From a virus: a DNA stretch of 39,507 nt. The first letter of the stretch is position 1. Each line of letters begins with the position of its first letter. Both the position numbers and the translations under genes were made by a program. Where the stretch lies: the IMG/VR virus record IMGVR_UViG_3300037537_000621, positions 1-39,507 of that record, one strand, 5' to 3'. Below the pieces are notes generated by a model. It was not told the DNA's origin and searched no databases. It was given only the letters and a program-made list of their open reading frames with translations. Below are positions 20,955-21,052 of the stretch, piece by piece.

Positions 20955-21019
20955 AAAAAAGTGGTGAGTTTCATGATAATAAAATTATTATCTGGTATAT
21001 GTAAAAAAACCTCACCACC
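20955..21019 (-). ncRNA. Small RNA with paired ends and U-tail (Y RNA-like)
   Basis: On the minus strand GTGGTGAG (21018-21011) pairs perfectly with CTCACCAC (20968-20961), closing the whole element, and TTTTTT follows at 20960-20955. Inside are ATACCAGATAATAA and an upper hairpin GATAATA / TATTATC. The promoter at 21024-21052 puts the start within a base or two of the first stem base. The predicted product is a RNA of about 64 nt whose 5' and 3' ends are base-paired and end in oligo-U, the architecture of Y RNAs, located next to a Ro60 gene. It could alternatively be only an attenuating terminator. Confidence 0.6.
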
Positions 21020-21023
21020 ATTT

Positions 21024-21052
21024 AATATATATATCATCTAAATTTCTCAAAC
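21024..21052 (-). promoter_or_regulatory. Promoter-like motif (second family) for the small RNA
   Basis: GTTTGAGAAAT at 21052-21042, GATATATATA from 21035, and a -10-like TATATT at 21029-21024. The distance from the -10 to the first base of the RNA stem is five to six bases, the normal spacing to a start site. Confidence 0.65.

Follow-up and report, generated by a model that had tools for sequence, protein, structure and literature searches.

Known from marine and cyanophage DNA, the manA RNA (RF01745) has been put forward as a candidate riboswitch or cis-regulatory element of potential 5′ UTRs (PMC2864571), and in cyanophage S-CREM1 an abiF RNA (RF03085) is found about 100 nt after manA (PMC9964418). 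Another group of small RNAs, comprising the Y RNAs and YrlA, goes with the protein Ro60 (Rsr), and the sbRNAs of nematodes count as homologues of the Y RNAs (PMC4726728). Intrinsic terminators, like the 3′ ends of small RNAs, have a G/C-containing stem followed directly by a run of U, and the loop of the terminators is short (3–8 nt).

Here we describe an element, B, on the minus strand of a viral record in IMG/VR (39,507 nt, 32% G+C), the whole of which we call the window. B resembles each of these systems in part. With the terminators it shares the stem and immediate U-run, the conservation of strand and position, and a place at the end of noncoding units, but it has a 42-nt loop with an inner hairpin and its U-run is weak in some members. 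It has the same direction of transcription as manA, which in many relatives lies between B and a promoter-like box, P2; B is, however, outside the manA model and persists where manA is absent, as in the window, where the RF01745 model gave no match. In common with the Y RNAs, YrlA and the nematode sbRNAs (RF01656) it is small, with paired ends and an adjacent Ro60 gene, but the Ro60-associated motif is missing and B is also found without Ro60. Like the abiF RNA it is a small RNA shortly 3′ of manA. An assignment to abiF was rejected, RF03085 being absent from the matches up to an E-value of 10. Comparison of B with Rfam gave no match at the gathering thresholds and only weak ones up to the same E-value. 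No earlier description of B was found in the literature, though subscription papers were largely outside the search and absence is therefore unproven. B is a previously uncatalogued structured RNA.

Structure of element B in the window

The earlier note had described a −10-like hexamer, a closed stem and a T-run within 100 bases, and each was located exactly where it had been placed, on the minus strand: TATATT at 21029–21024, GTGGTGAG at 21018–21011, CTCACCAC at 20968–20961 and TTTTTT at 20960–20955. When the G·U pair 21019/20960, which uses the first T of the run, is added, the closing stem comes to 9 bp (21019–21011 with 20968–20960), five of them G–C, and is directly followed by five to six U residues ending at 20955. 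The 42-nt loop contains a 7-bp A/T-rich hairpin (20992–20986 with 20981–20975). The whole element, 20955–21019, folds with −17.1 kcal/mol (z = −4.5), and none of 200 shuffles was as good.

Both strands of the window were searched for perfect 8-bp stems with at least four G/C, a loop of 25–60 nt and a following T6, with dinucleotide shuffles as the control. B was the only hit. The shuffles gave 0.035 such stems per window, or 0.005 when a −10-like hexamer 3–8 nt upstream was included, and because of these counts and the fold statistics chance can be excluded as the source of the fit, which the earlier note had judged unlikely to be accidental. A covariance model scored the element at 81.6 bits, although the window is among the model's own sequences. 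It found no further convincing copy in the window, the plus-strand match being the mirror of the B palindrome. A terminator scan of the window did not find B, and a tRNA search of the window found none.

B is conserved as an RNA upstream of gp32

The covariance model gave matches upstream of gp32 in loci collected by gp32 similarity and in a Ro60 set, and further cases came from pattern scans that made no use of proteins. Of the hits that a first degenerate pattern gave away from gp32, most lacked the 3′ arm and were coincidences of sequence. After removal of repeats B was present in 35 distinct IMG/VR loci, and in all 35 a gene for a gp32-like single-strand DNA-binding protein lies 3′ of it on the same strand (in the window at 17848–18609, minus strand; PF08804, phrog_1192). 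The distance to gp32 ranges from 110 nt to about 2.3 kb, varying with the intervening inserts, and is only 110–120 nt in many loci. Among the distinct loci B was found at no other genomic position.

Compensatory changes were seen in B of relatives with a close Ro60 gene and sufficient upstream DNA. In an alignment of 25 distinct homologues all 225 of 225 stem cells are paired, and the pairing is lost when the stem partner is slid. Double changes occur at four stem pairs, amounting to 10 cells against 2.5 in shuffles. The roughly 13 wobble cells are all G·U or U·G, with no A·C, from which it follows that B acts as an RNA read from the minus strand. These changes bear out the reading of B as a structured RNA on that strand: it is a conserved structured RNA of marine phages, with clear covariation. 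A coding role was considered and rejected, as the window frame ATG AAA CTC.. is not preserved in relatives reading CTAAAACTC.

Across 15 loci identity is 98.5% and 93% in the two stem arms and 96% in the T-run, compared with 70% at third codon positions of gp32. The T-run is weakened in three loci (L109, CCCTTTTAT; L112, CCTTTTATA; L140, CCTTATTTA). Although TTACATATA is nearly invariant within the loop, the loop as a whole (83%) is hardly above the spacer before gp32 (80%) in the same 15 loci, so that a function of the loop sequence is not demonstrated. Isolate phage genomes gave no DNA match; the nearest gp32 in an isolate, that of Microcystis phage Mel-JY01, is 47% identical, and the stretch of that genome examined held no convincing B.

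The P2 box and the RNAs between P2 and B

Directly 5′ of B in the window is the P2 box, TTTGAGAAATTTAGATGATATATATATT (21024–21051, minus strand), whose sequence and spacing are kept in about seven relatives; it lies 0–2 nt from B in the window, L003, L009, L012, L013, L108, L109 and L112. A sigma-70 scan of the window did not list a promoter for B, and the spacing between TTGAGA and TATATT is only 15 nt. The case for a promoter is made by the conservation of the box and not by a match to consensus. P2 also stands immediately ahead of genes (window 31894) and of other closed-stem RNAs (L140, CGAGTCGA..TCGACTCG and T6), and is a recurrent phage element and a putative promoter. The closed-stem RNA CGAGTCGA..TCGACTCG, followed by T6, comes right after P2 in L139–L150 (for example at about 600 to 670 in L140) and has the same plan as B. 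A separate 64-nt repeat, present in three copies in the window (21935–21998, 23551–23614 and 23734–23797), carries a promoter-like TTGAC(A/T)-N17-TAAGAT site on the minus strand, apparently a second class of promoter.

In other relatives the gap between P2 and B is 80–635 nt and is filled by structured RNAs, with B coming right after them. Element I (TTGGAAAGT..ACTTTCCAA, about 85 nt) occupies this place in L006, L010, L014 and L122, the gap being 80–85 nt in L006 and L122, and element J, of about 100 nt, does so in L110/L111, the gap in L110 being 100 nt. P2 is 446–635 nt upstream of B in L095, L114, L116, L117, L120, L121, L124, L136, L137, L139–L142, L145–L147, L149 and L150. When seven long-form or related loci were compared with RF01745, six contained manA at 62–69 bits (gathering threshold 55), upstream of gp32 and in the order P2–manA–B: L095 743–927, L116 4541–4742, L121 4540–4741, L137 4500–4701, L140 876–1076 and L141 4278–4480. 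The seventh, L112, has P2 directly next to B and is without manA. Where manA is present, B comes next or is separated from it by I or J. L095 also has a noncoding stretch at 171–302 that starts with GGAATG, ends with GTTCGAGTCC..CGTTCC and looks tRNA-like with a large insert, though ARAGORN reported no tRNA in it.

The proposal that B is a self-contained small-RNA gene therefore holds in part. The conserved stem and the near-fixed spacing of P2 in about seven relatives agree with it, but B is not autonomous: as the same box is found far upstream elsewhere, with RNAs in between, B seems to be the 3′ end that RNAs of different lengths have in common. When the forms are placed on a tree of gp32, that with manA is scattered over the deep branches and the direct P2–B form occurs in two places, and it would seem likely on this distribution that inner modules have been lost or recombined.

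The Ro60/Rsr gene and candidate Y RNAs

A 650-nt gap between a 131-aa ORF (21243–21638) and the Ro60/Rsr gene contains elements A, B, C and D, all structured. The gene itself (18970–20592, minus strand) encodes a Ro60/Rsr-like protein of 540 aa with TROVE and vWA domains (PF05731, PF25045; phrog_850); it matches the NCBIfam Rsr model NF041674 with an E-value of 2e-173 and 577 bits, under the cut-off of 900. Element D (20632–20705, minus strand) matches RF01656 (ceN72/CeN74) with 28.9 bits and an E-value of 0.0011, short of the gathering threshold of 38, and carries the motif GGGTCGGA..GATTATC. Element C (20770–20880, minus strand, its 3′ limit approximate) has the 5′ motif GGGTCGGAGTTGTAAGATTACC at 20873. 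The two have GGGTCGGA-N-RTTAYC in common, and GGGTCGGA..RTTAYC is also found upstream of Ro60 in phages L025, L034, L036 and L041/L042, in one to four copies (four in L041/L042). In the sets searched it is confined to Ro60-bearing contigs and to their coding strand, the gp32 set having it only in contigs with Ro60. C and D are good Y RNA candidates, judged by motif and position directly 5′ of the Ro60/Rsr gene. A motif scan placed a second P2-like box, TTTGAGAAATTAGGAGTATATATATAATATA (20901–20931, minus strand), 5′ of them; it is a 72% repeat (D2) of the first. The window comes from an uncultured marine phage in which candidate Y RNAs accompany Ro60, and its Ro60 relatives in isolate genomes are less than 50% identical.

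Possible roles of B

We consider it probable that B is the constant, terminator-like 3′ module of a noncoding unit driven by P2 and situated upstream of the gp32–uvsX replication operon in a lineage of marine phages. RNA polymerase would start at the P2 box and would next transcribe any structured RNA that intervenes (element I or J alone, manA by itself or accompanied by I or J, or none at all), after which the B stem and U-run would end or trim the transcript and shield its 3′ end. In the window phage P2 abuts B, and the transcript would measure about 64 nt, its 5′ and 3′ ends pairing with one another. Since the unit is reduced there to P2 and B, a start near 21019 is predicted; this is the natural reading of the locus, and we infer that the short RNA accumulates. 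Termination of transcription by B we likewise infer from the stem and U-run. Arguing against this explanation are the length of the loop, 42 nt being long for an intrinsic terminator, the weakened T-run of some relatives, the slight margin by which the loop exceeds the spacer before gp32 in identity, and the poor match of P2 to sigma-70; the long loop together with the weak T-run in a few relatives calls for caution in regarding B as a terminator.

Tentatively, P2 and B may bound an exchangeable RNA slot by the gp32 operon, in which a fixed promoter and a fixed 3′ cap would enclose a varying payload (manA, I, J or none); manA would here be a free RNA, not a 5′-UTR riboswitch. With B, marine phages gain an uncatalogued RNA family, and the orphan manA motif is tied to a defined unit next to replication genes, with P2 and B as its ends. 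This puts in question whether the manA of these phages acts as a 5′-UTR riboswitch or belongs to a free RNA.

B could instead be a trans-acting small RNA, its stem offering the U-rich loop, which contains ACAUAUACC, to a target of the host or phage or to a protein, with longer P2–manA–B transcripts processed to release it. The direct P2–B spacing maintained in several relatives, the near invariance of TTACATATA and the persistence of B where all the neighbouring RNAs (manA, I, J and the Y RNAs) are absent are what such an RNA would explain; we nevertheless find it rather doubtful, as conservation of the entire loop does not clearly exceed that of its flanks and B has no known target and occupies no other genomic position. 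The placing of manA ahead of B, the short distance from B to gp32 in many loci and the description of manA as a candidate riboswitch would suit a leader that regulates the gp32 operon and has B as its expression platform, either terminator or attenuator, and manA as the sensor in the long-form relatives. This is unlikely, given that the window and relatives keep the stem though they have lost manA and though B is separated from gp32 by Ro60, cold-shock or small ORFs, and an unsystematic look turned up no other pairing able to disrupt the B stem.

It is very improbable that B works as DNA, either as a protein-binding palindrome or as part of a replication origin near gp32–uvsX: B is AT-rich and has replication genes adjacent to it, but the wobble pattern on the minus strand and the one-sided T-run fit an RNA. 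That B might be a Y RNA for the Ro60/Rsr protein encoded nearby was the first hypothesis, prompted by the adjacent gene about 360 nt downstream; B also has the paired ends and U tail of Y RNAs. This reading is largely refuted and now scarcely credible, the GGGTCGGA..RTTAYC motif of C, D and other Ro60-phage loci being absent from B and most of the 35 distinct loci showing no Ro60.

Other features of the window

Downstream of B on the same strand are genes for the Ro60/Rsr-like protein, a cold-shock protein, the gp32-like protein, UvsX, an exonuclease, a DnaB-like helicase and others. Immediately upstream of B, and built on the same plan, is element A, the 3′ part of which (21069–21162, minus strand; inverted repeat I6) has the closed stem TTGGGGAAT/ATTCCCCAA with a branched interior followed by T7 (fold z = −3.7); its stem and T-run are kept in relatives. 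Just 3′ of the 131-aa ORF are two tandem hairpin repeats (21240–21165, minus strand). Pairing of their loops, CTACG and CTACC, with CGTGG and GGTGG, which precede them, would make two possible pseudoknots. By eye the stems of these repeats covary in an alignment of relatives, and they are reminiscent of repeat-type antitoxin RNAs.

In the region 5′ of gp32 (18610–18728, minus strand) an inverted repeat, TTGTCA..TGACAA, is found shortly before the gp32 start in relatives, with TTGTACA..TGTACAA in L116; it is possibly a leader hairpin for self-control of gp32. A DNA methyltransferase-like ORF of 565 aa (13816–15513, minus strand) has family matches mainly to residues 1–130 and about 470–559, which suggests that it holds an inserted domain or an intein. 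The window also has, at 23800–24636 on the minus strand, a phage gene for a cellulase-type protein of Glycosyl hydrolase family 6 (PF01341).
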